Assembly: GCF_964204865.1 (NCBI RefSeq)
Contig: NC_135252.1
Location: 13,041,383-13,105,382 of the forward strand
DNA: 64,000 nucleotides
Origin: Styela clava
Lineage: Eukaryota; Chordata; Ascidiacea; Stolidobranchia; Styelidae
Direction of reading: 5' to 3'
In this document: one piece after another, positions 22,331-55,505 of the stretch
Layout of the letters: each line of letters begins with the position of its first letter
Position numbering within the stretch: the first letter of the stretch is position 1
Made by a program: the position numbers and the translations under genes
The notes under the pieces: generated by a model
The model's database searches: none
The model's input: only the letters and a program-made list of their open reading frames with translations
What the model was told of the DNA's origin: nothing

Positions 22331-23784
22331 TTATCTAAATAAAAGTTCATCGATCTTTCGATCCCATTCGCTTCGAGCAAATACTGCGTCGTTGCAATTC
22401 GAGTTTGAACAGCAAAAGTGGCAAACATGGTCCTAAAAATAAATACAAATAAAATTTAACAGATTAAATTAAGAAATAATAGTACAGTATTGAAAATGTT
22501 GCTATTTTGATTTATCTTTTTACCTGTATTTATATGCATTTTACTGACGCGCTTTTAAATGTCAGATAGAGGAGCTCCAAGGAGTAATATTACCAAATAA
22601 GATGAAAAGTTTTCCTTACCACTTCTTGTGACTGCGCTCTGGTGAGAGTTTGGGAATAGCAACCCTTTGTGTTGTCCTCACACGCTTTAGCAGTTTTGCA
22701 TTCTCCATAAACTTTGTACGAATCTGGCTTTATTTCAAGCTTGACCTGACACGAATTCTTAAAAACAATTAAAACAAAAATTATGAAAATATGTTTATAT
22801 TATTTCAACTCAAAATTTGAAACGCATCCTGTTTTAAATCGGTGAAGTTATTGGAATGATTCTATATTTACTATCAATCATTAACTGTGAGTCGCCGTGT
22901 GTATATAACTCCCAACAAAGCTCAGCAATCTATTTTTCTGATTTGTTTATATTCCTTGTCATGCTAGGTTACCAAACTATAAACAATTTACCTGCAAGTA
23001 CTTGCATTCTTTCACCTCGCTTGTAAGATCGTCCAATGTATCTCCAGAACCAACATAGCAAGTCCTCCTCGGCACTGGAGTTGGTTCTACGGCTTCACTT
23101 GTGTCGACGGGGTCAACAGGTTCAACAGTGTCATCAGGTTCAGCAAAGTCAATGGGGTCGACGGTATCAAATGGATCAACTCCGTCTACACCTTCAAAAG
23201 ACTCATCAGGGACACCGGAGTCCACGGTTTCAAAGGGGTCAACAGGTTCAACAGGTTCAACGGGATCAACGGGATCAACAATGTCTTCTAAAATTGATTA
23301 TATAACAATTGTCTGTTCATTAAACTTTATTGAAAAATAAGTAGTATCTCTTGTTGCGTCTCAGAAACTGCTTAATTCAATGTTTTATCTCAGAATATCT
23401 GTCTGAAAATATATTGTAACAGTTCAAATTGAAACTATTTCATTGTTTTACTCCAATATTAATCAATCATTTCAATATCAAGGATATTTGTATTTCGGAA
23501 ATATGCAAAGAGCAAAGTTTTTTTTATGACTTATTATTCTCAACATACAATGAATTGTGATATTAAAATGATTGTAAATAATATTGCTAATGAATAAATA
23601 ACGTGCTATGGTATTAGGGATTACTTAAAACTTTAGAATATAAATTCTTTTGCATATAGTTTGCGGTAGTTTTGGTCTACTCTATTAATTACTATGAAAG
23701 ATAAATATTTATGTCATTCTTACCTTGACCGAATGTCAGTCCAATAACCAGAGAAATGAGAAGAACATATTTGAGAGCCATCAT
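22331..23784 (-). CDS. Ten-Cys secreted protein A (LU-like), with VDP/VEP repeat linker
   Basis: Member of the local family of small secreted ten-cysteine proteins; function unknown. Exons 23784-23724, 23287-22992, 22757-22620 and 22432-22331 give 198 residues, the longest member. The signal peptide is MMALKYVLLISLVIGLTFGQ; the second Met could also start. Exon 2 opens with about 68 residues of acidic repeats of the form V-D/E-P, then the first two Cys (RRTCYVGSGD...KECKYLQ). Exon 3 has NSCQVKLEIKPDSYKVYGE and the next four Cys; exon 4 reads VCHFCCSNSNCN and ends ELLFR. Intron phases are 1, 0, 0 as in all members. The CC-x4-CN ending suggests an LU/three-finger fold, but the domain assignment is tentative. 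The nearest relative is gene B next door. Polyadenylation signals follow within about 50 bp. Confidence 0.85.
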
Positions 23785-24709
23785 GGTTGTTTTCAAAAAT
23801 CTATTTAACCTAGTGCGTTAACTAAATATATCTAACTAAACATAATAAAAATTTTAATTCTTCAGCCACAAAAACAATAATCCGAGTGACATGAAAATGG
23901 TATGGCAAGCAAGAAGTATATCAAAATATTGGATACAGTTTAGAAACGTTTATGGCAATGAGACCTGTGAGTTTTAATCAATCTGGTATGCACCATACAG
24001 TTTTCATAGTAACGTATCTTAAATAAAGTCAGTAAGTAAATGCAAAATTGTTATTGCGAACATATGCACCTTAAAAAGGTTGTATACTTGCTTTGCAATA
24101 CCCCAAATTGTTACTACTCCTATGGTGACCAAATTCAATACGAAACATTAAAACAAAATTGGAAAACTTGACATATTTTTTAATGACCGCATTTTATTAA
24201 TTTACCAAGTTTGGTTTGGATACCAATACAAAACTAATCGAAAACGACCAATGTAAAGTGAGGGAATAATGATAAACAGTCAGTATTTTTGATAAAACAT
24301 CTGATTTCAGATAGCACATTGACAGAGATCTCAAATAGGATTCCACCTAATTTACGTGAACAAACAGTGTATACAAATATATATGATATGATTAGCTCAA
24401 TAACAGTTTTACTTTAGTTCTATTGTGGTAAACCTGGAGCAAATTTATATAAGGAAACCATTTGTGTCATGCTCTTCACTACTCAAATCCAGTTTTGTAA
24501 GAGGATTCCTACGACAATCTAAAACAAACTGATCGAATTCATTTTTTCACTAGTTTCAAAAAAAACTTCAGCTCAGATTTTTGAACATATTATTGCGTAT
24601 CAAAATCTATTTTTATTCTTTTTTTTTAATGTTTTTTTCTCTACAACAAATCACCACAAAAGGAGTATTAGTTAAATAAAATCTAAAGCTTCTATTTATA
24701 TCGAGAATT

Positions 24710-26164
24710 CTATTTTAAGAGTTTATTTTGTTGTCGTCGTAACAATCTTTCAGCATATTTGGCGGTATTGCAATAACTTGGACGGCAACAAAAATGGCAG
24801 ACATGCTCCTGTAGAAAAAAAGTGCATTATTAACTTCGTTTAGAAAAAAAAAAATGCTGAAAAAAAAAATTTGATGGAAATTACCGCTTTTTCAGCCTCC
24901 TCTGATGTCATGGTAGCACTGTAACAATCGTGGAACTTGGCATTATTTTGGCAAGCCCGAAATTCTTTGCATTCTCCATAAACCCGCATTCCATTTGAAT
25001 TGATTTCTACTTTGACTTGGCATGAATTCTGAAAATTAGCATTAGGCTTTAAAATAGAAAACATTGCAGTCTGCAATCTGTTGATAAGGTAAACATTAAT
25101 CAGACTAATATTCTTGACTCGCAACAAACCACATAATTAAGTACTAAACAAAACTCGAGAAAAATATTTACTAAGTCTATAGATGATAAGACGACTTTAA
25201 CCAAAATGAAGCGTACCACCATAACACTACAAATATACAGAAGCAATGAAAGATAAATTCTTGATAACAAAACAAAAGATAAGACAGAAATGTTTTTTTA
25301 TTTCACCACTAACCTCTAGAAAGTTGCACGTTTTGTTTTTTGATTGTATGTCAGTAAAGTTACTTCCGAATCCAACGTGACATGATCTTCTATAAGCAGG
25401 AGTCGGCTCAATCGTTTCTGCAACTTCTTCACTTTCAGCGGCGTCTTCCCCAGTTCCATCGTCGATTACAGTGATCGTATCTTCTCCACCTACGTCAACT
25501 ACCTCTACCGCGTCAACATTCACTTCATCTCCGCCAGCAGTTCCTTCAAAATCATCAGTTTCTAAAATAGAATATGCATTAAAATTGATATAAGGTATAT
25601 TCAGCCCAACGCCAAAAAAGGTATTTCCTCAACCCCGCCCAAATTTCAAAATAATCAAGTACGAATTGTTCTAATGACATACGAAAATAAAAACAATTGT
25701 TTGAGGATTTTATTCATCGAAAATGAACAATGCAAACTCATTTGATATAGTATCAAAGATAGATGTAGTCACGTTAGAAAAAAAAACTATGTTTAATGAA
25801 ACATGCTGATTGGGATTCACTATATAAAACGATCGACAAAACTAAAAATATTACACATACAACTTGAATATATTGATTATATTGTATTTTTCTTCGTGAG
25901 TTCAAAATCACATCGAGTAATCGTAAAGATTTTGTAGGATAACGGGAAAAATACCCTTTGAAACCTTGAACAGATATCATCATAGTGATGTATAGTAACG
26001 AGTAGGCAGGCCTATAAGATCTTAGGCTTCAGCTTTAAAATGACCAGTGTTATCGAATGACTTATATAAAGATAAAAAATTTTGTAACGTTGAAACATGA
26101 TCTTACCTTGAGCTAGCGCCAAGCCCAGAATTAACGAAACAAGAAAGAATTTGAATGAAAGCAT
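24710..26164 (-). CDS. Ten-Cys secreted protein B (LU-like), acidic linker
   Basis: Paralogue of gene A in the same orientation, separated from it by about 0.9 kb. Exons 26164-26107, 25561-25314, 25028-24885 and 24808-24710 give 182 residues. The signal peptide is MLSFKFFLVSLILGLALAQ. The exon 2 linker is acidic but non-repetitive (TDDFEGTAGGDEVNVDAVEV and onward), then RRSCHVGFGSNFTD and TCNFLE with Cys1-2. Exon 3 (NSCQVKVEINSNGMRVYGE...) carries Cys3-6 and is two codons longer than the family norm. Exon 4 reads EHVCHFCCRPSYCN and finishes with a basic tail (AERLLRRQQNKLLK), in contrast to the acidic ends of C and D. All ten Cys and the 1-0-0 phases are kept. Role unknown; secretion is predicted. 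Confidence 0.85.
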
Positions 26165-28039
26165 AGTCGTTTCAATGTTTAATGTAACCTAAAACCTAAT
26201 CTATTCTAAACTGGATAAAGTATAAACATAATTTTGTACAACTAAACTTCAAGCTTACCATTTACAAATGGACTCAAATGTTTCAAATCAGTAGAATGTT
26301 AGTATATATTTTTTCTTAAATAATATATATATAAATTTGCCAACCTCAAAAAAAATGTAGCCAATCACAAAACGCGAACGTGTCTTATAAAAATTGGATT
26401 CTACCCCAAGGGCAGAACGGGACGTATTGTATAAAAAATACACGTACGCCCATTAGATTCTTGCTCAAAAACCAGTTTGTCAAGAACAGATTCATGGTAT
26501 TAAAATCATCCAACCAAAATATTATTGAATAATATAGAATGAAACAATATTATCTGCCAATACTCGGAAGGTTTAAGACGTTTATGTCCTACCCTTGGTT
26601 TATTGATTCGAATTTGAAATTGAAACTTGAATCGATGATCAAGTTTTTCTGCCTGACATTTTGGTAATCAAGGTAATTTGAAACCAAGTTAGGACCCGTG
26701 CAAGCACTACAGATAAATGTGAAGTAACCGTTCATTTCGTGGCAAAATACTGAGTCTGCTTATAAGTATGACCTGAGGTTATTAATGCCTTCAAATGACG
26801 CCGTTTTGTGCACGTATTGTCATTAATATAATTAATCGACTTATGCAGTAATTGTACATAGATGATTGAACGTTTCAAACGGCCGGTTTCTCGTGAGTTG
26901 ATTCAGTGATGACTCGTTTGAAAGAATGGTCCTCTATATTTAAGACTTGTTGCTGTGTTTGCTGACATAAATATTTTTGAACCAATTATATGTTACAAAA
27001 TAATAGGATGGTATAAGACATTTTCATATCATTTATAAAAAGCTAAAGCAGTATATTAGATCATGGTAAAACACAAATGAGTATTTGGTGTTATTTAATA
27101 GCTTTTGAATTTCTATAAATCATTTTTCAATGCCTAAAAAGAGAAATTGACTGACGCAAATTTATTCTGCAAATACAGAAATAATTGAAAAAATGTTCAA
27201 ATTTTTCAGTTGTCTAGATATATTTAGTCTTTCCATCAAATTTCGCAATGAAAATTAAAAGATTCTCGTGCCCATATCTTCGTTTGGCATAAGAACGACG
27301 TAGAAGCCCTTTATTCGAAAAAGCTTCATGAAGTCCAAATTCGTTTATGTTACTGTTTTGATATGTTTTGATATGTATTTATGATTCAACTTATCAAAAC
27401 GTCATCTTCATACATTTGATTGATCTTTTGATTAAAGATGCGTATGCACCGTTTTCAATAATCATTAAAGAATTAACTTGAACAAGAATGAAATTTGAGT
27501 GATATTTGTAATTTATGGGAATTTATGCTGGCGGTGTCGCAGGATTTCACATTACAGATATTTAGTAAAATAACGAAATTATTATTGTTATATATTTTTT
27601 TTCCAAATAGCGATATTTCAAAGCAATTCAACTCATATTTAAGTGAAATTATCTGAGCATATTATGTCATACCGAAAGTATCATTAAATTGCCTGGTTGA
27701 GTTTACTTGGGGCATAATGATTCAGTAGCTATTATCTATTGTTAGGCGAATTAAATAACTTTTGAAGTGGCTAGCAAATCAGAACGAGTAGTTTTAACTA
27801 ACCGTCGAATTCAAAATCAATGAAATACTGAGTTCGTTTAAACTTTAAAGTATCCTACAATTAAATGCTAACCACCAAGTTCAACAGGGCTCTTTGTTAT
27901 CAAGAGTTATCAATCAATACCATTTGACATGAAATTACCGTATCTTTACCGTGAAAACAATTACAATTTATTAAAATCTAACGTGCTAAAATCTTTGCCG
28001 CGGGTGTGTATGTTTTCACAACGGAGATAATATCAAAAA
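26165..28039. other. 5' flank of gene B, no supported gene
   Basis: AT-rich DNA at the start of the large central gap between the two arms of the ten-Cys cluster. A minus-strand stretch at about 27210-27365 reads open for about 50 codons and looks protein-like (FGLHEAFSNKGLLRRSYAKR, then YGHENLLIF), preceded by a possible acceptor. I cannot place it in a gene and do not call it. Confidence 0.4.
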
Positions 28040-28282
28040 CTAGGTCGTCCTCTGCAACCGGTAAATCAACAATACGGCAAAACTGAACGTAAGTAAAGCT
28101 AAAAATAAGTCAGCTGTTATGTTATAATTTAAAATATTACTCCGTACGCAAAAGCCTACACGGGGACAAATTATATGCGCAATTGGTATGGGAACGCTAC
28201 TGATATAAACATATGGGATTTCTGATGAACTTCTTGTGCTTCTATCATCCTGCGACGGTAGATTCATACTTTCATAATGCAA
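28040..28282 (-). CDS. Hypothetical small tail-anchored membrane protein
   Basis: An 80-codon ORF with ATGs at codons 1 and 6. The N-terminal part is polar and Ser-rich (NLPSQDDRSTRSSSEIPYVY); a single hydrophobic segment lies at the C-terminus (ADLFLALLTFSFAVLLIY), followed by RLQRTT, the layout of a tail-anchored protein. No domain is recognised and no promoter or splice context was established. It could be the last exon of a larger gene or a chance ORF. Confidence 0.25.
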   Translation of the reverse strand: MHYESMNLPSQDDRSTRSSSEIPYVYISSVPIPIAHIICPRVGFCVRSNILNYNITADLFLALLTFSFAVLLIYRLQRTT

Positions 28283-28379
28283 TGACGTTGTCGCAAAAGT
28301 GAAGATATATATCTATTCTGAACAATTCAAAAATTTTCCAGCACGATAGCACAATTTTTTATGAAAATACAGCAAACAT

Positions 28380-30160
28380 TACTTGTTGTGGCTTTGCAAA
28401 GCAGTAATTTGGAGATGTTATCAGGACGTATTTATTATCTGTGACGCTAATATTACATTCGAAAAATTGAATTAAAAGTCAGTCAGGAACTTTTATGCGC
28501 CAGACATTGCTACAACATAAAAAGTAAACTATTATTTATGAGTTTTATATTCAACTAAGAGATTTGCATTTTATAATCCATTGAAACCTATTAATACCTC
28601 GTAAGATATATACATTTGTTGATGAAAAAAAAAATTAACAACATCTACAAACTATACAGCTTTTTATCTCACGGGAGAATCACAAAAATAGAATACTGTC
28701 ATTTACAAATTCTTAATCTATGTAGCCACAATTTAAAAAATATAATTATTTATTGCGATACCGGAGATTGGCATAGTCGCATTGTAGAGTGTAGCAGACT
28801 GCATTATGCTAACAAGAAAGATAACATTCTTTTTCCATTTTGTCACTGATCAAACGCATTTAAAATGAAAACAGTTTCAATTTTAACGTGTTACACGGAA
28901 TGTTTTTTTACCTCCTGTAATACTCAGCTCCAGGTGGTGTCAGCCCAAACGCTAGATGGCTAAAACCGAGATGTTGCTTCAGATTCGACCGTGGTTTTTT
29001 TTATCTTCTAATCGATAGCAAGACGAAATCAGAATTATGCTTTTGATGCTCTACAACTTGATGTTTTGAGTATAACAAGCATGGCATCTATTAAATCATA
29101 TACTTCCATTTATATTCCTGACAGGTGCCGAAACGCTAATTATGTAAACGTATGGTATTGGTTGAGTTTATGCGAACATTTTCATTTGTGCCTTTGAAAT
29201 AGTGAATAAGTATTCGAATGATGCTGAAGCAAGAATGAAAATATATATTCAAATGATTCAAGCTTCTTGCAGAAAACTGCCAGAAATGTATTTTGGTTCG
29301 GTGTGACCGATGTCGGATTTCTTCAGACATGCAATAGGTGACTTGGTTGACCTGTCATAGTTGAAATATCCTTTGATAAAAAAAAATTGACTTCGATCAC
29401 ACAAAACGTTACAATAATACATTTTCTGCTAGAGCGCAGCAAGACTACTATTGTATATTGAAAATTCAATTTATAATACCAAAGAAAAGATTGTAAAAAT
29501 ACGTAATATATCAGATGCACGAGACAAAACTATTATACGAAAGTAGAAGAAAATAAGTACAGGGGAAGTGGTTTGTTGTGGTTTTGTAAAGCATCAATTT
29601 GGCGATGTTATCAAAACGTACTTCCTATTACATTAAAGAATTTAAAACCGGTCCGCAGTCACAAATAAGTCGGGAACTTTTCTGCATAGAGATCATAGAA
29701 AATTATGTTCATGTTTATGATATTTCAATGATTTTTTTTTATGCCAGTATGGTCTTGTGTATGCATATCGTCTTCAACGTCATTAATTGTCAGCTTATCT
29801 ATAATTCTTACGATTAACAAGACGAGTGAACATACGTGCATGCGTAGATTTTAGATCCGAGTCCGAAATTCACACTTTATAATAGGTTTAAAACAGTTAT
29901 CATTTGGACATTAATATGCTTTTTATTAAATGAGATATATACCAAGATCATTAAATAAAAATATTATGATCGGAACTATAAATACTACAAAGGTCTCTCT
30001 TTCTCTTAGTCTCTTCCAGGCGAAACCTAAAAAAAGTGACATACTTAGAGACACTATTGAATGGAGGACACAAGTAAGTGAATCACTTGTTATGGGTGTT
30101 CGTATCCATCGTAACAATTTGTCCCACATGGTGTCAGCCTTAACGTTAGATGACTCAGGC
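28380..30160 (+). repeat. Diverged tandem duplication with offset about 1.19 kb
   Basis: The block at 28384-28432 (ttgttgtggctttgcaaagc, aatttggagatgttatc) recurs at 29574-29622 with about 85 percent identity by eye. Further matches follow at the same offset: aggaacttttatgc near 28488 with gggaacttttctgc near 29672, and ggtggtgtcagcc near 28933 with atggtgtcagcc near 30129. Most of the space between is too diverged to align by eye. The boundaries given are approximate. Confidence 0.5.
30020..30073 (+). other. Candidate orphan internal exon (54 bp)
   Basis: A strong pyrimidine tract and acceptor (tctcttagtctcttccag) precede 54 in-frame bases encoding AKPKKSDILRDTIEWRTQ, followed by a consensus donor gtaagt. 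The surrounding frame stays open for 136 codons (29930-30340), unusually long for this DNA. I found no partner exons, so this may be an exon of an unrecognised gene or a cryptic site. Confidence 0.25.
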
Positions 30161-30340
30161 GAGCAACCGTGTCTTTTATTTTTTATTAAGCCACAAAATA
30201 CTTTTATTCAGCTACTTTGCTATTCAAAAAATGTGAGTTATCATCATCTCAACTATATATATCAATTGCTTGCAAATGAACCCTCAGATTCTGACTGTAA
30301 ATATTCCCTTCTTTTTGTAGCCTTTCAGTTTGTACATTAG

Positions 30341-32490: not shown

Positions 32491-33060
32491 ATTCCCCAAA
32501 AATCATATGCGGTACCGTAACTTACCAGTACCTGTATCGGGGTACCGTGATGGTACAAGGACCGAGCGTTTTAGGTCCTGTGACAATGATCTATTCTTTC
32601 TGATTATGTTTAAACATCAATTGAAATATTATGTGATCTGAGTCATTTATGTATTACCGGATCAGGTACCGCAGTCAAACATTTCCCGTAAAAAACATTC
32701 CAAAATTATATGCGTTAAATTAACTTAACAGCAACTGAATCGGGGTACCGGGACAAATAACTGTATAGGAACTGTCATAGCTTTTCCATGTCCTGTGGCA
32801 ATGACCTATTCTTCTCCATTATCAGGGGGAAATGAAAAAATATATCGATTCCCCAATAATCATATGCGGTACGATAACTTAACAGTACCGGTGCCTGTTG
32901 AGCCAGACAATCCTCGTTTGTGAGACAAATAGACCGGTACACGGATTTTCCAGAGTATGTGACGATTCCGTTTAAACGTGAATTGAAATACCAACTGATC
33001 CAATTTACTACGGTAATATAAAAACCAATACCACAGTCTACAAATATACTGACACCAAGC
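32478..33060 (+). repeat. R2 tandem repeats (catatgcggtaccgtaactt)
   Basis: Units carrying catatgcggtacc-taacttaccagtacc start near 32504, 32707 and 32861 (steps of about 203 and 154 bp); another is near 31457 inside the R1 array and an inverted one near 51529. The units also share atcggggtaccg and tcctgtgacaatgatctatt. No coding potential is seen. Confidence 0.7.
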
Positions 33061-35194: not shown

Positions 35195-36389
35195 ATGAAG
35201 GTTGTTATCTTTTTCGTGGCATTATTTGTTTTTGCATATGCACAAGGTGAGTCTACTTTTTTCCTAACTTCTATTCGTGACTAGAACTAGTTGGACAAAA
35301 TATTTAATGAGAGGTGTTTGAGTATAGATTAAATCTTGTTTGCCCTTCATGAATGCAAAAAAAGTATTCTGAAGAGATTCATTTTTGACTAAAAAATTAG
35401 TTCAAACTATTTAATGTATATTGAAAAAGCATGTCATTCGCGATGTAATCATTATAACGTTTACTTTGTAACAGAGGATGCAGAAGAAGTTGATGAAGTT
35501 CAACAAACACCCAGATGTAACAGTGGTGACACCTTCTTCAATGGAACATTGACAACCAACGAAAAACCTACAAACTGCTCGGCCGCACACGTAAGTAAAA
35601 AGACACCACTGAAATGCTTACTGGTATAGACTGTTGTTGTAATTTAAATAGAACGCTATATCTTCAGAGGGGAGTAATCTTTAAAAAAAAAACAGTCTTT
35701 TTAAAATATAACATTCTTTTTGGAGTAATTGGATTATTCTAAAATCAACCATTTCTGATTAAACATTATTAATTATAAATTCTCATTTTTAGTCAACTTG
35801 TCAAACCAAATTGGAAGTAGGTCCAGATTCTTACAGAATCTATAGGCAATGCCAGAGTGCAGAAGCTTGCGAAAATAATCAGAAAAGCAACCCACAACAA
35901 TGCTATTCGGAAGAAGCAGAAGAAAAACAGGTGAGAAATTCAAACTTAGTAATTAAAAGAGCCAAATCTCTATCTTTGTTTCTATATGAGGCTTTTTCAT
36001 ATCATCAATTTAGACAGTTGAGATCTAATATTTTGGAATAATTGGAATCTCACATGACCGGAGTTTTTTACTCAATTTATTTCCCTTCCTCCGAAAAATA
36101 GTAGACATAAGAACTTCCCATGTTTTTAAACGTGCTCGTCAAATTCCGATAGTTTTTTACATTTTCTGTCTATTTTAAATTACTTTTATATGATGCGCTT
36201 TAAACACTATTTCGTTATCAAATAATAACATGTAAAAACGCTGTTTCAATCTTTCAAACAACAACGTTACAGGAAAAGGTTTGTCATTTTTGCTGCCGAG
36301 GAGATTTTTGTAACGATGGGAGTGAAATTGATGTTGTGTTGCCAGTATCAGACGATTTTGCTGACGAAGACGTAGATGAAGAAGTTTAG
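35195..36389 (+). CDS. Ten-Cys secreted protein C (LU-like)
   Basis: First plus-strand member of the family. Exons 35195-35246, 35475-35590, 35793-35930 and 36273-36389 give 140 residues. The signal peptide is MKVVIFFVALFVFAYAQ. A short acidic linker (EDAEEVDEVQQTP) precedes RCNSGDTFFNGTL...NCSAAH with Cys1-2 and possible N-glycosylation at FNGT and NCS. Exon 3, at the family-standard 46 codons, starts STCQTKLEVGPDSYRIYRQC and holds Cys3-6; exon 4 reads EKVCHFCCRGDFCNDGSEID and ends in a strongly acidic tail (DDFADEDVDEEV). CCxxDxCN here is an exact LU-domain ending. The closest relatives are gene D and the orphan exon at 39715. Function unknown. Confidence 0.87.
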
Positions 36390-37160: not shown

Positions 37161-37302
37161 ATATAGACCAATGATTTTCAACCGACGTTCGGTGGCACAC
37201 TAGATTTCCGCCAATACAGCCCAGTGATTTCGCAAGTATCCATTCAAATCTGAGAATCTACATTGACTTATTTATATTGTTATAATCAAATATGATATAA
37301 TG

Positions 37303-37801
37303 CAGGGGTGACCAACTTACCTGCCACCACGATCGACTAAAATTGTCAAAATATCTCGCGATCGACTGATCGATAAGGTCACGCACAAAAGTAAATGAGT
37401 ATTGAATATGCAGATACCTGCACACACGTATTCAGAAATTTGCTGCCGCTGCCAATAAGCCTGGTACTTTTGGCGCATTCCTAATGAAACTGCCATCATT
37501 TTTTTTATTTTTCATGTTCCATCTAATTTGGTAATTTGATTATATAATTGTACCCCTTGTGAATGCTTCATCATTTATTTAGAATTTATTCAAATAATAC
37601 AATTCTGATTCAAGACCTGCTCAATTTTTAGACGTAAGTGTTGGAAATTCGTCAAAAAACCTTGCATAAAACTGGTTCAGGGCAATTTTTTGAGGGATGT
37701 TATCACATTTTCTCAGCATCAGACGCGATGTATATTCGATATCGTATACTCGAGACGCGGCGATCGACTGGTCGATTGCGATCGACGTGTTGGCTACCCT
37801 G
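37303..37801. mobile_element. hAT-like MITE related to the element at 56972
   Basis: It starts CAGGGGTGACCAAC and ends, read inward, CAGGGTAGCCAAC. Subterminal cgatcgactaaaattgtc, cgatcgactgatcg and gatcgacgtgttggc match the larger copy at 56972-57802. No matching 8-bp flank was found, so one end may be rearranged. Confidence 0.7.
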
Positions 37802-39440: not shown

Positions 39441-39714
39441 TGTTTAAAAACACGATTCGGGATGGCTGGATAATTTTATTATGCTAGCATGGTAGATTCA
39501 ATCTGGTCATTCTATTACCGGGATCCAGCACACATGTTTCTCAATAATTTATTTAGTGAATCTGAATACTGGCTCTACCATACTATATATATTTTAGACG
39601 CTTAATTTTGTACAAACAAACTGCCGGAGTTAAATATATTGTTTGAAGTTTATAGTTGATTGCGTTTTCTACATTAATAATTTTACACTACATTTTCTCT
39701 ATTCAAATTGGAAG

Positions 39715-39786
39715 GAAAAAGTTTGTCATTTCTGCCGTCAAAATGATTTATGTAACAACGAAAGTGAAATTGATATTTTATATTGA
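39715..39786 (+). pseudogene. Orphan exon 4 of the ten-Cys family (broken)
   Basis: After an AG at 39713-39714, 24 codons read EKVCHFCRQNDLCNNESEID, then ILY and a stop. This is plainly a copy of the family's last exon, closest to genes C and D. One of the paired CC cysteines is replaced by Arg, the tail is truncated, and no exons 1-3 were found in the 2.5 kb upstream. It is best read as the remnant of a deleted family member between C and D. Confidence 0.8.
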
Positions 39787-41711: not shown

Positions 41712-43268
41712 ATGTACGTCAAACTACTTTTTACTGCGTGTTTAGCGATTTGCATTGAGAAAGTTGTTCTTCAAGGTAAGTTGTTTATTTGTATACTCAT
41801 TATAACTGATGATTCTTTCAAGCTGTTAATTAATAGGGTACATGTGACATAGGTGATCACCATCACTAAACGACATCTTAATAAAGCATGTAACAAACAT
41901 GTTTACGTATCTGAATACCTTCATGTGTGGTAGTCAAAGGATGTTAACTATGATTGTTTTAAATAGAATTGCTTAAAGCGTGATCGCGCGTACCCAGTCA
42001 GAAATGAAAAAGCCTCATCTCCAAGCAAAGTTACGAATACTATAATAAATATTATAGCATAAAAATACGAATTATTAAATACCAAATACCGGAAAGCTTA
42101 GGTTAATACGATCCGAAAAGCTATGACGTGTATTCCACATAACTGAGGTTCTTGGTGAAACGCTTTGGGCATAAATTTTTGAGTGAAATAGGTACACTGC
42201 AGCAAACGGATGGAAGTTTACTGACAATTGGCTGGAAACTTTACTTGGAGAGACAAGCTCCGAAATTTATTTTATCCAAAGTATTTCTCAGTTCAGAATA
42301 TTACAGTTCATTATAATATATGTAGAATTTTGTACTCATTTTGTCACGAATCGGCACTAATTTTACACTGGTGATTGACTCTTTTTACAAGCATGACGTC
42401 CATACGTAACTCCATGTTATTTTGGATTCTGAGTAAAGGCTGCTTTTATTAAAATCATATTTCAAATATCCAGGTTTTAACGATGGCTTCGATGATTTCA
42501 GTGATTTATTTGACGATATACCAGCAACAGTTCTTCCAACACCCACTAAAGATCCAGAATGTTATATCGGTAGAACATTTTTTAATGGAACTCATATTAC
42601 ATTGAACAATCAAACGAGTGAAGTCTGTTTGCCGCACGAGGTAAAACTTTTTCATTAGAATTTATTACAGATCCTAATTTCTAGTGTTCCGAAATTTGTT
42701 GAAAAAGATTTAAAATAATAAAGAAACAACAAAATCATTATTAATACAATGATCAGGAATGTATTTGTCGAGTTTGTAGTGATTTTAAATTGAATTATGA
42801 ATTTGATGACTTTTTTATTCGTTCTTTTTGAAATTTGCAATAAGATTTTTAACAAATTGCTACATTTTAGAAAACATGCCAAACAAAAGTAGAAATTGGA
42901 CCAGAAAGTTACAAAATTTTTCGTCAATGTAAAGAGCCAGAAGTTTGTAAGAACAATCAGGCAAATAACAATCAAGTGTGCTACTCAGAAGAAGCAAAAG
43001 AGAAAGAAGTAAGCACGTCCTTTATCCACACTTTTAAACGTTCTCTCATCCTCTCATTTGTTATTTCCAATTTCTATGCCGTTCCCCTTGTATTTGTATA
43101 ACAGTTATGTATCATACACAATGGAATTTCTGAAATATTATTTATTTTCATAAACAGGAGCAACTCTGCTATTTTTGCTGTCAAGGAGATTTTTGCAATG
43201 ATGGAGAGGAAATCGACGTATTGTTACCAGGAGCATTACCTCAAATGGACGAAACCGATGGTCTTTAA
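41712..43268 (+). CDS. Ten-Cys secreted protein D (LU-like)
   Basis: Family member of 159 residues from exons 41712-41775, 42474-42640, 42871-43008 and 43158-43268. The leader MYVKLLFTACLAICIEKVVLQ is a less typical signal peptide (Glu-Lys near its end) but occupies the same exon and phase. Linker: Asp/Phe-rich then Pro/Thr (FNDGFDDFSDLFDDIPATV). Then ECYIGRTFFNGTH...VCLPHE (Cys1-2, with NGT and NQT glycosylation sites), KTCQTKVEIGPESYKIFRQC (exon 3, 46 codons, Cys3-6) and EQLCYFCCQGDFCNDGEEID (exon 4). Ends acidic (PQMDETDGL). A good acceptor (ttgttcagccag) sits 14 bases before the ATG, which would fit an upstream leader exon or spliced-leader addition. Polyadenylation signal AATAAA at 43439-43444. 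The closest paralogue is C. Function unknown. Confidence 0.86.
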
Positions 43269-46330: not shown

Positions 46331-47443
46331 ATGAAAGGTGTGCAAATCCTTCTCACAATAGTTCTTAATTATTGTGCAGTCTATGGACAAGGTAAGGTTT
46401 TAATAAAACAAGTTATGCTACCTTCTAATAAAACTCAAAATTAAGAGGAAAAGATTCTGTTATGATTTTTCATATTGTTCTATTAATTCATAGGTTGAAT
46501 GTCACGATAAATACAATCAAATTTATTTCCTCTTAGACACAACAAAATGTTCAGCATTTTACATTAAACTTTTGTTGCAGATGGGACGGAAGTAGGGGGC
46601 GGAATTGGTGGAATCGGTGGTGCAACGGGAGCAGGATTCAAAGTTTCATCGCCAATCACTTCAGAATCTAATCGATGTTACTGGGGGATAAATGAATATG
46701 ACGGAATCAATGACATAGATCACAAATTTGAAAAAGAAGTTGCATGTTCTTGGGGGAAGGTAATGCTTTTACTAAGTCAATAAAATTAAATTTCCTTACA
46801 AAACCTGGGTTGGTATACATAGCTTTCTCATTTCACATAAATTAATTTCCAATTAATTAGTAATTTCCAAGTGCAAGTCATTGGGTAAGCTATTCCGTGG
46901 AAAGGTCCTTCCTTCCACATATAAACGGTGTAAGTGGCAATTCTATATAATTACATTTCTATTTTATTTTTAATTTTATTTAGTCAAGATGCCAAGTCAA
47001 ACTTGAAATCCGACCAACCGGTTACAGTATTTTCAAAACTTGCAAGGAACCTGAAGCTTGTGAACGAAATATTGCAAACAATCCACAACAATGCAAAGAA
47101 CCGTACGCAGCTAATATGGAAGTAAGAAAATTTTCGCATTATAATAAGTGTATTTGTGAGATGCATTTATATTCATCTTTTCAACCTTTTTTTTATCGCA
47201 TTATTACTAGTGTTTCTACTAGTATTCCAGCTACACTTCTTCATTGTTATGTCTCCAGACTTCTCGTTCTCACATAAACTGAAGCAATTAAACAAATTTT
47301 GAGAAATAAAATATTTAAACACTGAATATATTTTTATTTTTTAGCATCGAGTTTGTCATTGGTGCTGCGATGGAAACTTATGCAATGTCAACGATCTTAT
47401 CCCTATTGATTTCAATGCAAAAACCAAGATACCGAAGCAATAG
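46331..47443 (+). CDS. Ten-Cys secreted protein E (LU-like), Gly-rich linker
   Basis: Family member of 158 residues from exons 46331-46391, 46581-46759, 46984-47121 and 47345-47443. The signal peptide is MKGVQILLTIVLNYCAVYGQ. The linker is Gly-rich (DGTEVGGGIGGIGGATGAG) instead of acidic. Cys1-2 lie in RCYWGINEYDGINDIDHKF...ACSWGK; exon 3, 46 codons, begins SRCQVKLEIRPTGYSIFKTC (Cys3-6); exon 4 reads HRVCHWCCDGNLCNVNDLIP and ends with a basic tail (AKTKIPKQ). The cysteine frame is intact while the linker and tail differ in charge from C and D. Polyadenylation signals lie at 47533-47538 and near 47583. Function unknown. Confidence 0.86.
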
Positions 47444-49221
47444 TTCAAGTAGTGCATACTCATATACACATGTTAAGAATCTGATTATAAAACTTTTACA
47501 AGGACATCAGAAAAAAATCGTATTAATTGTAAAATAAATGCTGAGCGATATTTTTATTATTGTGATATCACATTTTGAATGGAAATAAATTAGGTTGATT
47601 CCTGGAATTCTATTTTTGTATTTTTTCTTTCGGGATTCGGAGACAACAATTTGTTTGGAAAGAGATTTAAAAAGAAGGTTATGTGAGAGGGAAAGTAATA
47701 GGAACGCATATAGTCAATTGGAATATTTCATCCAAAGATAAATCAACTTCGTAAGTGACAAAATAATAAAATATCAAAAACATATATTTGTTTGTAAACG
47801 CGAAATACGCTGGGAGAACGCTTGTACAAACCAAACTTCTGGGAGCGGTTCAAGATTGAGGAATTTAGCCATAGAAAGTTGAGGAAAGAACAAATGCGAG
47901 TCGACAAAAAGATGGTAGAGATGTCGCTATTGTAGAGGAGGTAACCTAATTTGTATTAGACAAATACTCAAGGTGAAAAATCTAGTTGCCCGGAACAAAA
48001 TTATCTGCAATGAGAACGAGGATATACTTTTCAAAACGGTGTGAGTATCAGATTTGAAAAGCTTCGTTACACGCCAGTGAATAATCGTAACTACGTGCGT
48101 CAAAAGTCCAGTATAATGTTCGATTCATTTGCTTTTCGTTGTATTGTTGTAATTGTCATTAGATTTTTCATGACTCACATATTTGTTAATATTGTAATCA
48201 CATATTAGTTTAATCGTTCTGATGAAAAAAGATTAAGAACCCACGAAAGATTTCATCAAACATGACCGGACTTTAAAGTGGTATTTTATCATAACCGTTT
48301 CTTTGTCTATAAATAAATATAGCAGCTAACGTCCATCCCTCGTAAATAATGAATCAAAAACAATACTAGGAATTATATGGTATAAACTGTATAAGATATA
48401 ATTCATTTTTTGAAGTACAATGTACGCCTAGTGTCCGTGACGTAAAACTAGTAATATAGATTTTAATCTAACGTACGAAAACAAAACACGTATTCGCCAT
48501 GCGATGGTTGAGATGTAAAACGTTCAGAACGACCCACCCTGAAGGGATATTTAAGAAGTTTTCAAGTTGAATTTGTTATTGCCGTGCCAGTAATGATTTT
48601 GGTATAAAACGGGAGTCTAAATACCAAACCATATTTGATACAAACGGAGTCTGAACAAAATATAGCATTTTACCGGATTACCTCGCAAAAACAGCAAAAC
48701 CGGTTTCACTAGTAAAACGATTGTGCTACGTACTTATACTGACACTCAATAAGATATCAGTTTTGAAAGAATAGTTGTAGGAGGTGTCAATCTTATACCA
48801 AATTACAATTGTTGATATGTTCAATTTTACTTTTATCTGTTGAGATAGATTTGCCGGAAAGAATAGGTCTCCATTTTTATTTACCGCATTAGGCTTATAT
48901 GGAAGAAAATTGGTATGAATTCAATTCACTGCCTCGTCGGTTAGCGATCCAGTTAGGATATGAGAAAACCTATGAAATAACGCACCGCTTGCTGTTATTG
49001 GATTGGATGTATTTATATTTAAATTACTAGTAATATTTGGCATTTGTGATTTGTTCGACTATGTTCAGAAGTCTCCTTTGTTTGCAAATACAATGCCTCT
49101 TAGTAGTATGCTATTCAGTGTGATGTCTAAATGTACATTTATAATGCGAATTTATTTCTTTTTGTATTAAGTTTTTGTTACAACTGTAAAGCTGTGGCAA
49201 TCAACGCAAACAACTACAACC
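47444..49221. other. Spacer between genes E and F
   Basis: No supported gene, RNA or transposon ends. This is the 5' flank of gene F; no clear TATA box was located near the start. Confidence 0.5.
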
Positions 49222-50531
49222 ATGAAATACTACATTTTTGTTCTACTGTTAGCTCTTGCAAGTAACAGAGCTTTTGCTCAAGGTGAGGAAATAGTTGCTT
49301 CTAAAGCAACTAGAGTATATGGCATATCTAATTTCATAAGTCCAATTGCCTTTTGCCATACATGTGACAAAAAAGATACTTTTCAGACTATTAAATTTTA
49401 AATCGATATTCATGGAAGAAATTTTTGAATTTAAATTTATTTATTGTGAAATATACAACCTTGTACCCGATTGCCAGGTCAAGTTTGGTACGATTAAAGA
49501 TTTGAACATTCCAAATCAATGCTTGTAATTGGTGAGCGCCTTAACATAACAGTTGTTACGTTAACCCATCCTGCGATGGTTTTAGTAAAAGCTTGGTTGT
49601 AAAGCTAAGTCATTACTTCATGGTATGTAATTGAGTTAAGAAGAAGAAGGAGACGAAGAAGAAGTTCCAGATTCCGATCCCCAAAATGTAACATTTCCCG
49701 CAATACCAGAAGTACTTGAGGAAAATCAGATTGTCTGCTATACTGATTGGAGAAACTATAAAAACGTGCGACAGGCCTGCCCAGTCGGTGAGGTAAGCCC
49801 AACGGAACATAAAAAATTCTGAAACTTTGACATCGATATTGCTCACTTTCAAATTTTTCAGCATATTTTTTTTATCATATGAAAATTATTATGAAATTTA
49901 ATAATTTTAATTTATAAAAATCTGACCTAATTAAATTTTTAACGTACTAATTAAGTCGAATGGCACAAGGGAAATTGCAATAACAGTACTAATAAATACG
50001 TTAATTTTCCGAAAAATATGCTAACAAAACATGTTCTGTGCAATAGATATGTCAGACAAAAGTTGAATTCCACCCTAGAAGCGATCCTGTGGTCTATAAA
50101 GAATGCAAGACACGCTTTGCGTGTAACATGAACCGGATCATCAATCAGAAACAATGTGAAGAAGGAGTTACAGTGAGTTTTTACGTCCTTGAAATTTTTT
50201 GACAAAGCACGTTTACGAATGAGTTATTAAGCAAAATGTAGTTCTAAAATGCTACAACTAGATATTGAGGGCATTATAGTGCGCAGCTCTCATGCTCAAA
50301 AATTCCAAAAGTTTAAATAAAGCAAATTCTTTCCCTGACAGCGCTATTTTAATTTTCAAGCTATATTCAAATGCTATCTACTGAAAAGGATAAAATGAAA
50401 TACGTAATTTTTTCTTCATTTTTACTCATTAACATGAACATTATATTTTTCAGAATCGCGTCTGTCATCACTGCTGCTACGGAAATGACTGTAACAGTGA
50501 CACACTACTTGAAGAAGATGGTATTTTTTGA
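49222..50531 (+). CDS. Ten-Cys secreted protein F (LU-like), shortest member
   Basis: Family member of 138 residues from exons 49222-49282, 49641-49792, 50047-50172 and 50454-50531. The signal peptide is MKYYIFVLLLALASNRAFAQ. Exon 2 follows an acceptor in ttgagttaag; the next AGs in the aag repeats would shorten the Glu run by one or two residues. Linker EEEGDEEEVPDSDPQNVTFP is acidic with one NVT site; Cys1-2 in VCYTDW...ACPVGE. Exon 3 is only 42 codons (ICQTKVEFHPRSDPVVYKEC, Cys3-6), four fewer than usual, from its ends. Exon 4 reads NRVCHHCCYGNDCNSDTLLE and stops early (EDGIF). All ten Cys are kept. Polyadenylation signal AATAAA at 50793-50798. The most diverged member by eye. Function unknown. 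Confidence 0.85.
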
Positions 50532-51504
50532 ATAATGAATTCTCGATGCGCAACTGCAAAATAATAGTTAAAGAATGTGAACTAAAATTGAATGCTTATT
50601 TCCATATCCATGTATTTTGTGAGAAGAAAAATTGTAGCCTATCAAGTTTAGTGAAAATAAAAGTTAAGAAAGATGCATCTATTTATGGAATGTTTGTTTT
50701 GTGTCAGCAGCTGTCAATTATGAATTAGTGAAGTATAGTCGCATAATATAATTTTAGAATCGGAATGTGGATCTTTTCATGTGAAAAACGACAATAAAGA
50801 AATACAAATATAGTTACAGTTATGGTTTGCGATGGATTCTATGTAATTGTTAGTTTCTGCGGATATACAGTGTTTCTATCGTTATGTTAAATATAGGAAA
50901 ACCTCTCCATTGCATAAAATATTTTTAACAAATATATACAAATATTAATAGACAATGAAATCGCTATTATAAACACTAAAAGAGTAGAGACACGTGTCAA
51001 ATCACAATTGCCCAAGAGTAGAATGCACATACTACCTTAATTTGGTGTCAGATCCTGGATTAGATGATTCTTGATCGACGGCCTAGGACCGCCCTGCTTT
51101 AGACCTGGATTACGCGATCTGGAATCTGCTGTTGGCAACAATTGTGATAAAACATTAATCAAATTAACAACGTGATGTCCGCTCACAAGCAAGAAGTGAA
51201 GTTGCTCATATTTTTCATTGGTCATTTACAATATCTGTTGACAAATTATAAAAATCAAACTTAGTACGGTCAAAGTTCAACTGCTTCCAAGGTTAAATCA
51301 TGTCATACAAACCGTTTAGCAAGATAAACAAGAAGATGATTAGCGAAAGTAGGAAGTTTTTTTGGGGTGCAAAAGACTACAGTACCGGTTCTGTAAAATA
51401 TCTGATAATACAGTTGGGACTCGGATCATTTGGTATTTCATTCAAGTTGAAGCCTGAGAGCATGAACCATCATCGTCACACGACTTGGAAAAGCTAGGGC
51501 AGTC
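50532..51504. other. Spacer F to G, first part
   Basis: 3' flank of gene F, then unrecognised sequence. ORFs at 51037-51225 (minus) and 51300-51497 (plus) are unsupported. Confidence 0.45.
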
Positions 51505-52050
51505 CGGGTATCGGTATTCCGATACACGCACTGGTAAGTTACCGTACCTGTTCCACAGTTCCAACTTTCACATTTTCAACGTTCAGGATATATTTTTTGC
51601 GGAATTGTGAAGATAAAAATTCGATTTAGCTTTCGTGTCCATATATTCGAGCATTGCTCTCGTGTTCTATCTTGTTCTTGTTGTTCTTTGTGACATTTTC
51701 TTGTTATTGTCATGAAACAAGCTTTTTACTGAACCTATTGCTTTGGAATGTTCATTGTTCAGTAGTTAAAAATTGTTGTTGTCGCTAGTAGGCTATTGCT
51801 TTTAATATTTTTTTGTTGGCTTTATGTGATTTTCTTGTTTGTATGCCATGACGATATCAAAATGAAAAATTGCGCTTATTGTAAAAGTATCGTGCTTGCG
51901 TTCGTTGATATCTGGTGGTCATGCGTAGTCGGGGAGGCTATGCATGCAGCTACGGTACTGGTAGTTTACTGTACACGATTAGATATCACCCATGCCACTT
52001 AGTTTATAGTCTTCGTAGTTATATATTTGAGCATTGCTCTCTTGTTATTT
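51505..52050 (-). repeat. Inverted R2 fragment followed by R1 fragments
   Basis: Near 51529 actggtaagttaccgtacc is the reverse complement of the R2 core. At about 51630-51810 the reverse complement of R1 follows (tattcgagcattgctctcgt, ttgttcttgttgttctttg, ggctattgctttt), and at 52020-52045 a second R1 head (atttgagcattgctctcttg). The same R1-R2 pairing as at 31.4-33.4 kb suggests they travel together. Confidence 0.65.
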
Positions 52051-52581
52051 TGATAGAGAAATCTCCATTCATAATTACTGGTAGGCTATATTACCGTCTG
52101 TATTACGAGTTCGTTCATGTAAACCCGATCGACCGGATTATGTAGGCTGTTTATTTTCTGCGTGCTAGATTAAGCGCAAGTTATCATGGATCTATAAATA
52201 AACATTGGTATCAACTCGAAGAGTAACAATACCCCTAATCGAAAATATAATCACTAGCTTTATAGATATCATGTTCAGTAATGGCCAATCTAATAAAAAG
52301 ACGTTTATTCTTACATCCAATGTTGATAAAAAAAAAACTAATAAAAACCACTCTTACATATAATTCCCGATATGTACACCATAAGCAGATCATGTTATGA
52401 CCGAAATATACCTTTAGGCATTACAAGCCTGTTAGTTAAGTGTTTAAAAATACTCTATCAAACTGAACTGCCACGTTTTTATTTTGTAAACTGTTATGAT
52501 TAAATCTGCTAAAACTATCAGGATTGGGGCTCGTTGAAATAAAACGTTTTGAGGTGCTAGGTACAGTTTGACTGCTCAATA

Positions 52582-55505
52582 ATGAAGATATTTCTTGCAA
52601 TATCATTGCTTGCTTTGTCTGGTTCACTTGGTTTGTCTGATGCACAAGGTAAGCAATTTACAATTATATGAACACGGCAACAAAATTGAATATATGTATA
52701 AATGCTGTAATGTGAGCACTATCGTTGCTGTGGGAAAGATATTGAATACCTAACTTGAGCACCATGGTGGTAATATAGCGCTACGTTCGGTATTATAAAG
52801 TAATCTTTTTGTTCCATTTTATTGTATAACCAGTGGAAAATCGAATTGATTATCTCTGCACACAGATGATACTTTTTTGTTTTGTTGCCATTAAAATTGC
52901 TACTGAAGCTGAAAGTGAGCCGTGATCGCATCAATACCATGCTTACCGGTCACAAGATGACGCTGTCTAATATAATCAACAAATAAATTTCACTCTCGAT
53001 AAGTTAGTCCAGAGTGGTCCAAGGTTGCGAGATTTTAGGAAGCCTTGCGGGACGCAGTCTAAAATATGTAATCAAAATACTGCAAGTTTAGGTACTTTAA
53101 ATATATCAAAGAACGAGAGTACCGTTCTAATCAGCTTATTATCGGTCGGGTCCTGCAATGGACAATTTATTCTCTTTGTCCCCATCCCCACTTCCTTTCC
53201 ATTTACCAGGGTCGCAGCCAATGGGCGGTTACGGGTGTCGTAACTCTCCCGTATAAATTTTTTTTAATGCAAAATTTCCACCTTCTACTAAAAAGCGGTT
53301 TACGGTCAGTGCATTACGGATTTTTATTCATAACGATATCAACTGTGCGTTGTCACACTAAGAAGATGAACATCGCCAGGATTTCGTCTTTACGATATAT
53401 AATCCTTTTTTATTGTTGGCGTTGATGATGAGGTATATCTCCTTATTAATTGAAATATGTACGCATACCCATCGTTCATGCTGATTATTGACAAGCGATG
53501 GTACAAGGTTTAAAACTAAATTCAAATTTAGGTGACAAATAAAGTAATTAAAACGCATTAATGGCAGCATCGAAAAAATGTATTTTGAAAATATACCACA
53601 GAAAGATATTTTTCCTTGACTGATGATAACCCCTCATATTAATTAATAATTGGTTGATCAAAAAGTAGAGAGTGTCACATGCTTCTTTTCAAACTCTCGG
53701 CACGATCCCTTTAATTATAACAAATCACGGCGCATCGGAAGAAAAATAGACTTTTTAAGATTAATTAGTAAGAGTATTACATTTAATACACATTTATTCG
53801 ATGCTACACGTGATCTTGTTTTTGTGCATGTAAAAGCTTATAAACGCCACTGCATATACAATATTCACGAGTCGTAAATCATATTCTCAAAATTAATTTT
53901 TACTATTTGTATCGTTTTATTTCTAAATCTGGCGACATAAGAATCAATTTCTTAGGAAGTACTGTTTCATTCGCAACTCTGAAATTTTTTCAACAGCTTT
54001 TCGCTGTTAACGACACCCAATATTTAGTTCATTATTTGCCTTACGGCGTCGCGCATTGCACCTTTGGCACACTGTTTTAATTTCATCGTTAACCCCCTGA
54101 TAAATAAATCATAGCTGCGCCCCTGCGGTAACGACCTCTAGACACGTTATCGTACCGACCACAGGACGTCATTCACATCGCCTTGACGTTTATAGATACA
54201 ACCTTGAAATTACGTTATTTTACCAAATATCATTCCTGACATCGGGATTAAGTAAACGGTTTAAATCTTAAGATTTCAACCAGAGTTGAAATAGTTAATA
54301 AAACCTTCTACCAATAAATACAAATATCTGCCAATGGTTTAGCGTACGCTAAAATTGTTCTGCGGGCCGCTCAGAATGTGTCCTTGGGACGCATGAGGCC
54401 CGCATGCAGGGTTTGGACCACCCTAAGTTAGTCAAAAGAGCAGGAACAGTCTGATAAAAATGTCAATGGTTCAAAACATTAACGAGTTTTCCATTACAAT
54501 TTTTTGAATCTTAACGAAGATGCCTCTGAAACTACAACCCAATCTCAAATAACTCCTTATGAAGTTACACCGCCTCCGGGATTTAAAGGATTAACATGTT
54601 GGAAGGGAAGTCGTGATTCTGAAGATACAAATAATCAACCTGATGAATGGGAGTTTTGCATGTATAACAAGGTATTAACAAAAATATTATGACGGAATCA
54701 ATATTTGTCCACACGATCATCAAAAAGCTGGGTTTGTATCCAATGCGTAAAGTGATTTGTCCAACAATAAAATATCACTGCGATTTTACCTCGTGGATAG
54801 CATTCATTAGATTATTAGTGGATGGTCGTCCAGGTTTGAAATGATTTAGTAATACCTGATTATATTCATATTATTCATTTATCGCATAAAAGAAATATGA
54901 TATAATAAAAGTGGTAAAGTGCCGATTTTCTTAAATTTTTTGGCGATGAAATAAAAGGGGATGACGAATAATTCAAGGCGAGACATAACCTTCAATCCAG
55001 CATACTGATGGAAATAATTATACAGCCTTATATTCAGTTGAAACAACAACACCCAGTCGAAAGCGTTTTTTTGCTTGGTAGCTCTCATTCATCATTAATA
55101 TCTGCTGATGTTGAAAATGTCATTTTATTTAGAGCGCCTGCATGACTAAAGTTGAAATTTCAGGAGATACATACAGAATATATAAGCAATGTATGCAGAA
55201 AAGCGCTTGTCAAAATCTGAGACAACCTAACATGCAACAATGTTACTCTGGTTTGGCCGCTGAAAATAGAGTAAGTAATATTAAACGAAGTCATATTTAT
55301 TTATATTCGGATAGGATTTGTTTATGTGATAACTCACGTATAAACCAATTAATACCACGTAACTGAAGACAGCAAGTGCTGTAAATTTTCAACATGTAAT
55401 TGTTTTCAGCAAAGAGTTTGCCACTTCTGCTGCTATACAGACACATGCAACACTGATCAGAACATCAAGATACCTGGAATGCCAGAGTTTTTTGTCGTTC
55501 CGTAA
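52582..55505 (+). CDS. Ten-Cys secreted protein G (LU-like), intron 1 carries a hAT element
   Basis: Last family member: 150 residues from exons 52582-52648, 54520-54671, 55133-55270 and 55410-55505. The signal peptide is MKIFLAISLLALSGSLGLSD then AQ. Exon 2 is placed after the acceptor in ttaacgaag, giving a Ser/Thr/Gln then Pro linker (ASETTTQSQITPYEVTPPPG), with Cys1-2 in TCWKGSRDSED...FCMYNK. Exon 3, 46 codons, begins SACMTKVEISGDTYRIYKQC (Cys3-6); exon 4 reads QRVCHFCCYTDTCNTDQNIK and ends EFFVVP. Intron 1 is 1871 bp, against 189-698 bp in the other members, because of a hAT insertion (53010-54425); without it intron 1 would be about 450 bp. Phases and cysteines are conserved. Function unknown. 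Confidence 0.84.
53010..54425. mobile_element. hAT-type element, 1416 bp, in intron 1 of gene G
   Basis: The left end CAGAGTGGTCCAA and the right end read inward TAGGGTGGTCCAA match at 11 of 13 positions. The target duplication agttagtc is perfect (53002-53009 and 54426-54433). Short ORFs inside show no transposase motif that I recognise, so it is probably non-autonomous. Confidence 0.88.

Follow-up and report, generated by a model that had tools for sequence, protein, structure and literature searches.

A tandemly duplicated family of probably secreted ten-cysteine proteins of likely Ly6/uPAR stock in the ascidian Styela clava

Introduction

The described proteins closest to the genes considered here belong to the Ly6/uPAR (LU) superfamily. 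According to sections of a review (PMC6600238), the textbook LU domain has ten cysteines, which include those of a loop-I bond (2-3) and not those of a loop-III bond, and the canonical gene has three exons with phase-1 introns, one of them at the tip of loop 2. Lypd6 has head bonds 3-31, 24-50, 56-75 and 76-81 together with a loop-I bond (6-15) and a loop-III bond (61-72), as given in part of PMC7582953. The same sections of the review state that, of the human LU proteins, only GPIHBP1 and SP-10 have a disordered N-terminal segment encoded by an additional exon. In GPIHBP1 this segment is acidic and forms a sheath over the basic patch of lipoprotein lipase, the enzyme that the LU domain binds (PMC8884915, in part). 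Here we compare with these systems a cluster of seven genes for ten-cysteine proteins, located between positions 22331 and 55505 of a 64,000-nucleotide stretch of the Styela clava genome (contig NC_135252.1, called C3 below, positions 13041383-13105382; the whole stretch is referred to as the window).

Very probably these genes belong to a family that is specific to its lineage and has spread by tandem duplication, its members being probably secreted proteins with one domain of LU stock and a LYPD6-type set of ten cysteines. The family is a clear case of invertebrate LU evolution, in which the finger-I bond appears to have gone, the LYPD6 finger-III pair has been kept, an intron is shared with mosaic genes, and GPIHBP1-like acidic tails occur.

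Results

Seven intact genes

Exons were set by splice sites and reading frame from the DNA, and the models are predictions from the genomic sequence alone. Seven models, A to G, were built between the stop codon of A (22331) and that of G (55505), with A and B on the minus strand and C to G on the plus strand. Every one of them has four exons, phases 1-0-0, GT-AG introns and a single open frame, and opens with a hydrophobic stretch of 17 to 22 residues whose last residue is Q; signal cleavage was placed by hand after this Q. Gene A (22331..23784; exons 23724-23784, 22992-23287, 22620-22757 and 22331-22432) encodes 198 amino acids, with ten cysteines and the longest acidic N-terminal tail. Gene B (24710..26164; exons 26107-26164, 25314-25561, 24885-25028 and 24710-24808) encodes 182 amino acids and also has an acidic tail. 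On the plus strand, gene C (35195..36389; exons 35195-35246, 35475-35590, 35793-35930 and 36273-36389) encodes 140 amino acids and gene D (41712..43268; exons 41712-41775, 42474-42640, 42871-43008 and 43158-43268) encodes 159. They are followed by gene E (46331..47443; exons 46331-46391, 46581-46759, 46984-47121 and 47345-47443; 158 amino acids), whose tail is glycine-rich and non-acidic, and by gene F (49222..50531; exons 49222-49282, 49641-49792, 50047-50172 and 50454-50531; 138 amino acids), whose tail is acidic (EEEGDEEE..). Gene G (52582..55505; exons 52582-52648, 54520-54671, 55133-55270 and 55410-55505) encodes 150 amino acids with a non-acidic tail. Its exon 1, which is followed by an intron of 1871 bases, was chosen as the best among three candidate starts that resemble a signal sequence and have a donor, and is for that reason less certain than the other exons. 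The acceptors of A exon 3, F exon 2 and G exon 2 end in AAG, so that these boundaries may be off by about one codon.

The models were examined with leave-one-out profiles, each built from six genes and run against 2103 window peptides. The left-out exon 3 was recovered in 7/7 trials (E-values from 7.3e-10 to 3.5e-22), the best non-family peptide reaching 0.083-0.32, and exon 4 was likewise recovered in 7/7 (3.1e-5 to 5.9e-12). Exon 2 was recovered below 0.01 for none of the seven genes; its best E-values were 0.014 for D, 0.095 for A, 0.41 for B, 5 for G, 9.2 for E and 38 for C, with no match for F. Placement of exon 2 therefore rests on splice sites, frame and cysteine spacing.

The initial annotation, made from the DNA letters, had reported the seven-gene cluster with these limits, exon number, phases and signal-like starts, all of which the models reproduced; secretion, which it had also proposed, is probable. 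Three motifs that it had assigned to all seven proteins were each found in six: G reads CMTK in place of CQxK, and D has VC for AC and LCYFCC for VCHxCC.

A lone open frame between C and D (39634..39783, plus strand; EKVCHFCRQNDLCNNESEID) resembles exon 4 with CC changed to CR. It was the top non-gene match in 7/7 exon 4 trials and outranked the left-out gene in three (A, E and F), and searches with the exon 2 and exon 3 profiles placed neither exon next to it. Judged by eye, the wording of this relic is closest to that of gene C.

Family members beyond the window

With five protein queries we looked for further members across the assembly (376.6 Mb, 379 contigs); since only the best candidates were scored, member counts are lower bounds. 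At least 11 full stand-alone models were obtained, along with one partial model (S4), one lone exon (S3) and the relic in the window. An intact eighth member, gene H, lies 41 kb to the left of the window on the plus strand (C3:12998886-13000785, or 7504-9403 of locus L026), with four exons, the same phases, ten mature cysteines and an acidic tail. The two divergent arms noted earlier make up only part of the cluster. A second cluster (S1 to S5; loci L035, L036 and L037) is found on the same contig, 6.5 Mb away (C3:6.478-6.495 Mb). S1 and S2 have three exons, exons 1 and 2 being fused, and S5 has four with phases 1-0-0; none of the three has an acidic tail. Exons 2-4 of S4 were seen, its exon 1 not being placed, and exon 4 alone was seen for S3. 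Gene H and the second cluster agree with the proposal that the module stands alone and has been multiplied.

At the DNA level, a CQxKxE pattern lacked specificity, with 212 matches against 97 for its reversed control. Its matches include dozens of near-identical 18-mers on the minus strand of another contig (C4:10675460-10823016), often about 590 or 1800 bases apart, perhaps a tandem array of some other gene or repeat.

Ten cysteines in a LYPD6-type frame

The predicted mature proteins have ten cysteines in 7/7 window genes, as had been claimed, and in 11/11 full stand-alone models; the extra cysteines of D (two) and E (one) lie within the signal peptide. Spacing in the window is C1-(13..22)-C2-(5,6)-C3-(16,17)-C4-5-C5-(6..10)-C6-(8..16)-C7-2-C8C9-4-C10, and across all 11 models the C4-C5 (5), C7-C8 (2) and C9-C10 (4) gaps are constant. 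The commonest stand-alone pattern from C2 on is 6, 16, 5, 10, 12, 2, 0, 4. The solved Lypd6 sequence (6ib6) has gaps of 2, 8, 8 in finger I and of 6, 18, 5, 4, 10, 2, 0, 4 from Cys 24 on, and its Cys3-Cys24 gap of 20 falls within the C1-C2 range of the stand-alone genes (12-22). The ten family cysteines answer to 10 of the 12 of human LYPD6, namely Cys 3, 24, 31, 50, 56, 61, 72, 75, 76 and 81.

From this register, four core bonds (C1-C3, C2-C4, C5-C8 and C9-C10) and a finger-III bond (C6-C7) are predicted. The cysteines of the core bonds (1-5, 4-6, 7-8 and 9-10 of the LU domain) and the CC-x4-CN end were at matching spacing in 11/11 models, the pairing itself being predicted, and in 11/11 two further cysteines occupy the finger-III position (C-x2-CC-x4-CN), where they would form a bond. 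The cysteines for the plesiotypic finger-I bond were found in 0/11, a single mature cysteine preceding the C2 position. Because the gaps register with the Lypd6 bonds, the family ten would comprise the four head pairs and the loop-III pair, with the loop-I pair gone; the number matches the textbook LU ten, the kind does not.

The Ly6/uPAR-like ending that had been noticed is supported. The accompanying statement that the signature resembles no named Ly6 protein was not supported: from the second cysteine on, the frame is that of LYPD6 with its finger-III pair, and the strongest Pfam LU matches are to the LYPD6 family. The family differs from LYPD6 and LYPD6B (Pfam UPAR_LY6_2) in lacking bond 6-15 and an end like that for a glycosylphosphatidylinositol anchor, in staying below the Pfam cut-off and in its variable N-terminal tails. 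With SLURP-1 and other canonical single-domain LU proteins it shares small size, predicted secretion and a single domain, and LU genes are often clustered. In contrast to the canonical gene structure given above (PMC6600238), the domain is spread over three exons, with phase-0 introns before C3 and before C7, and the four-exon layout is unusual, as had been suggested.

Mosaic genes with a related module in the same genome

Modules of this kind had been suggested to occur in larger proteins of other marine invertebrates, and the Styela genome itself was found to contain them. At E-values up to 10, a modular query matched 38 places in the genome, many of them weakly. In locus L014 (1030-3222, contig C19), one open frame of 731 amino acids carries Sushi, EGF and VWA domains over the cut-off, a weak fn3 match and an LU-like domain reading CYGC..NEC..VEC..GC..KCKQVTAC..QC..VCRCCCEGDLC. 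The LU-like domain is here a true module beside Sushi, EGF and VWA, which is not its usual setting according to the review sections (PMC6600238).

In loci L015, L017 and L022 the C3-C10 half lies on one exon, which starts in phase 0 two codons before C3 (3/3). In A-E, G and H the family exon 3 starts at the same distance from C3, and in F it starts one codon before C3, so that the intron before C3 is common to the three loci and the family. Downstream exons on the same strand, presumably part of a common transcript, contain Sushi repeats over the cut-off in 3/3 loci (1/2 frames in L015, 3/3 in L017 and 2/3 in L022, where the frame without a match lies upstream). In L017 and L022, upstream exons with a phase-0 donor (RCFTCVNAPSNEACNENGKIEVCAPNE and RCHVCHGESSNQRCNARGTVLCPPNA, respectively) encode a CxxC finger I with cysteine gaps of 2,8,8 and 2,8,7, versus 2,8,8 in LYPD6; a search upstream of L015 yielded no finger-I exon. 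When the two halves of the domain are joined, UPAR_LY6_2 is matched at 0.00061 in L017 and at 0.0044 in L022, both below the cut-off.

The mosaic modules thus resemble the family in their C3-C10 half (..KxCKQ..AC....QC..VCRCCC..DLC; 18.1-38.0 bits) and in the intron before C3. They differ from it by the CxxC finger I kept in L014, L017 and L022, by one extra cysteine (CRCCC), by the Sushi repeats that follow in 4/4, and by a C3 to C10 region on a single exon. Since L017 and L022 retain the finger-I spacing, the stand-alone family has most likely lost its finger-I pair, a direction that sequence comparison suggests.

Relation to the LU superfamily

A profile of the 11 stand-alone domains scored L017 at 38.0 bits, L022 at 34.9, L015 at 29.6 and L014 at 18.1, followed by part of CD59 (15.7), LYPD6 (14.9) and an LU exon of the same genome, L001 (14.7). 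Each of the seven exceeded 500/500 of its own shuffles with cysteines fixed. In Pfam, UPAR_LY6_2 was the best LU match for G (7.8e-5; 23.3 bits, versus a cut-off of 31.5) and E (0.0015), and also for S1, S2 and S5; for C, D, F and H the best LU match was CD59 or TOLIP, again below the cut-off. Because the family profile beats cysteine-fixed shuffles, yet LU matches are weak and no Pfam cut-off is reached, we class the family on sequence grounds as LU-derived and not as LYPD6.

Exon 3 of gene C, modelled as a fragment by itself, gave a strand (3-9), a second strand (14-20) and a helix (23-32), with a mean predicted local distance difference test score of 69.7 and a predicted template modelling score of 0.35, which is weak evidence. 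This is the order of loop II and the following helix in Lypd6 and Lynx2 (PMC7582953, in part).

Among other searches, PF16975 gave no match in this genome nor in any of 14 control genomes and is hence uninformative, and Rfam gave no match on the window. The assembly yielded no COX1 by which a tunicate mitochondrial code could be checked. Four NCBIfam families, each in 1/7 proteins (best E-value 0.00065, radical SAM), were taken as spurious, the library being prokaryotic, and a match of the L014 domain to the mannose-6-phosphate receptor in the PDB (0.06) was taken as chance. Among the matches listed, none of the ascidian or tunicate Ly6 or three-finger papers describes the family, most subscription journals lying outside the coverage.

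Phylogeny and constraint

A tree was built from 17 rows (12 stand-alone domains including S4, the four modules and LYPD6) and 62 columns. Firm pairs were A with B (99/93), F with H (97/92) and S1 with S2 (99/100), and the modules grouped together (85/92). H pairs with F, not with its neighbour A. LYPD6, L014 and S4 had long branches, and a single clade of the eight main-group genes (A-H) was neither shown nor rejected (approximately unbiased test, p 0.366).

Mean pairwise identity among these eight, cysteines excluded, falls from 0.39 in C3-C5 (finger II) and 0.37 in the exon 4 core to 0.26 in C5-C7 and 0.14 in finger I. S1 and S2 are 79% identical, with a ratio of nonsynonymous to synonymous rates (dN/dS) of 0.28 (NG86) or 0.44 (YN00), and in the alignable parts of their introns identity is 62-64%. 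Silent distances were 3.9 for C-E and 1.7 for D-E, and none was obtained for C-D, A-B and C-H. For these five pairs the picture fits old copies under constraint, although it gives no measured ratio.

Acidic tails

An acidic segment with 0-2 basic residues lies between the signal peptide and C1 in 6/8 main-group proteins. Aspartate and glutamate make up 25 of 76 residues in A, 20 of 60 in B, 6 of 14 in C, 8 of 29 in D, 12 of 32 in F and 15 of 42 in H. The tail of A (23061..23287, minus strand), with D/E-P-V wording and 2 K/R, is coded by an imperfect repeat (23086-23285), whose spacings are multiples of 9 nt and whose opposite-strand frames are open too.

GPIHBP1 has a comparable arrangement, a variable-length acidic extension ahead of a single LU domain. 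It differs in coding the extension on an exon of its own, whereas the family has it on exon 2 together with finger I, and in its cysteine frame; the family extension is also less dense, tyrosine occurs only in that of B among the six acidic tails, and no anchor-like end follows. The acidic-tail architecture likely arose independently of GPIHBP1.

Discussion

By analogy with GPIHBP1, we tentatively propose, as a possibility short of an even chance, that the proteins act as soluble secreted modulators which grip basic protein partners by tail and LU domain. Each protein would be freed in soluble form, since it has no strongly hydrophobic C-terminal end. The conserved half, finger II and the base, would hold the common scaffold or partner class, and the diversified half, the variable finger I and N-terminal tail, would set the choice of partner. 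In A, B, C, D, F and H the acidic tail, if disordered and retained, may capture the basic face of the presumed partner while the LU domain would dock on that partner. Gene structure, cysteine frame, conservation pattern and acidity were observed in the sequences; fold, bonds, secretion, tail disorder and partner are predictions. An LU-derived family combined with this tail mechanism is the best explanation as a whole, and we consider its chances about even. It is doubtful that the genes go further and represent an independently built and multiplied soluble GPIHBP1 architecture, in which every secreted protein would serve as an electrostatic chaperone or carrier and would be fitted by its tail and finger I to a different basic extracellular protein. 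Should the tails act in the proposed way, sheathing by charge would be a trick of three-finger proteins in general, not peculiar to one mammalian lipase carrier.

Several observations weigh against this explanation. On the side of LU descent, the 14.9 bits of LYPD6 are weak, and the Pfam LU cut-off was reached by 0/7 window proteins and 0/4 stand-alone proteins outside. A and B have no LU match whatever in Pfam, and for C the LU families are beaten by two others (0.018 and 0.026). The profile search of the PDB yielded CD59 alone (E-value 0.7-0.9), and gene G by sequence gave no PDB match up to an E-value of 10. On the side of the tails, those of E (3/32) and G (3/26) are non-acidic, S1, S2 and S5 have no acidic tail, and the density of 0.28-0.43 acidic residues is far under that of human GPIHBP1 (21 of 26). 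No anchor was seen, mean hydropathy over 12 residues close to the C end reaching at most 1.16 (G), and a dibasic RR directly before C1 in A and B might let the tail be cut off.

The proteins could instead be soluble receptor modulators of the Lynx, SLURP or LYPD6 kind, whose fingers would tune nicotinic or other membrane receptors, with the tails as mere spacers. We consider this rather unlikely. Finger I and C5-C7 change fastest, and the likeness to LYPD6 outside the cysteine frame is weak. The NxI motif, by which LYPD6 contacts LRP6, is absent from finger II in 8/8 main-group proteins. In favour of such a role, the nearest named cysteine frame is that of LYPD6, which targets nicotinic acetylcholine receptors and the Wnt coreceptor LRP6 (parts of PMC7582953 and PMC8473786), and the starfish protein Lystar5 acts on the human receptors (PMC9410279, in part); the latter parallel is qualified by the proposal, in part of PMC11595613, that its target in starfish is an integrin. 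Like the present family, the starfish Lystar and LyAr proteins are LU proteins of an invertebrate deuterostome that occur in many copies, and LyAr4 is LYPD6-like by description; unlike here, the portions of their descriptions that were available mention no acidic tail.

A role in recognition, by gametes or in body-fluid or tunic immunity, with diversification through duplication, would fit the clustering of diverged duplicates whose finger I is variable. Bouncer and its human homolog SPACA4 are examples of LU proteins that act in fertilisation (PMC6600238, in part), one LU protein occurs on starfish coelomocytes (PMC11595613, in part), and the window also contains a gene with a C-type lectin exon, a proximity that proves nothing. 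We regard this role as unlikely: the dN/dS of S1/S2, the sole pair recent enough, indicates purifying selection, and other pairs are saturated or nearly so.

The acidic stretch might also be a propeptide, cut at a dibasic site, that aids folding or holds the domain inactive. RR abuts C1 in A (PRRTC) and B (YRRSC), but no dibasic site is present there in C, D, E, F, G or H, and neither A nor B has an R-x-K/R-R motif at this place, which makes a propeptide improbable. An unrelated small cysteine-rich fold with a convergent CC-x4-CN ending, to which the unreached LU cut-offs and the missing finger-I pair might point, is very improbable given that LYPD6, CD59 and the four modules all exceed their cysteine-fixed shuffles under the family profile, that L014, L017 and L022 carry a CxxC finger I, and that joined L017 and L022 match UPAR_LY6_2, albeit below the cut-off. 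Cationic antimicrobial peptides were ruled out by the domain charge, -4 to +3 across the eight main-group genes.

Other features of the window

The gene with the C-type lectin exon is collectin-like (11297-12577, minus strand); this exon scores over the cut-off and a collagen stretch below it. Exons of an actin gene lie at 8318-9717 on the plus strand, the first of them matching Pfam Actin at 2.1e-55. Membrane-transporter-like frames were seen on the minus strand at 1377-3895, where 1/3 matches MFS_1 weakly, below the cut-off. A repeat with GATCGACT motifs is present in two copies, 37302-37376 and 56971-57045, which are 84% identical.

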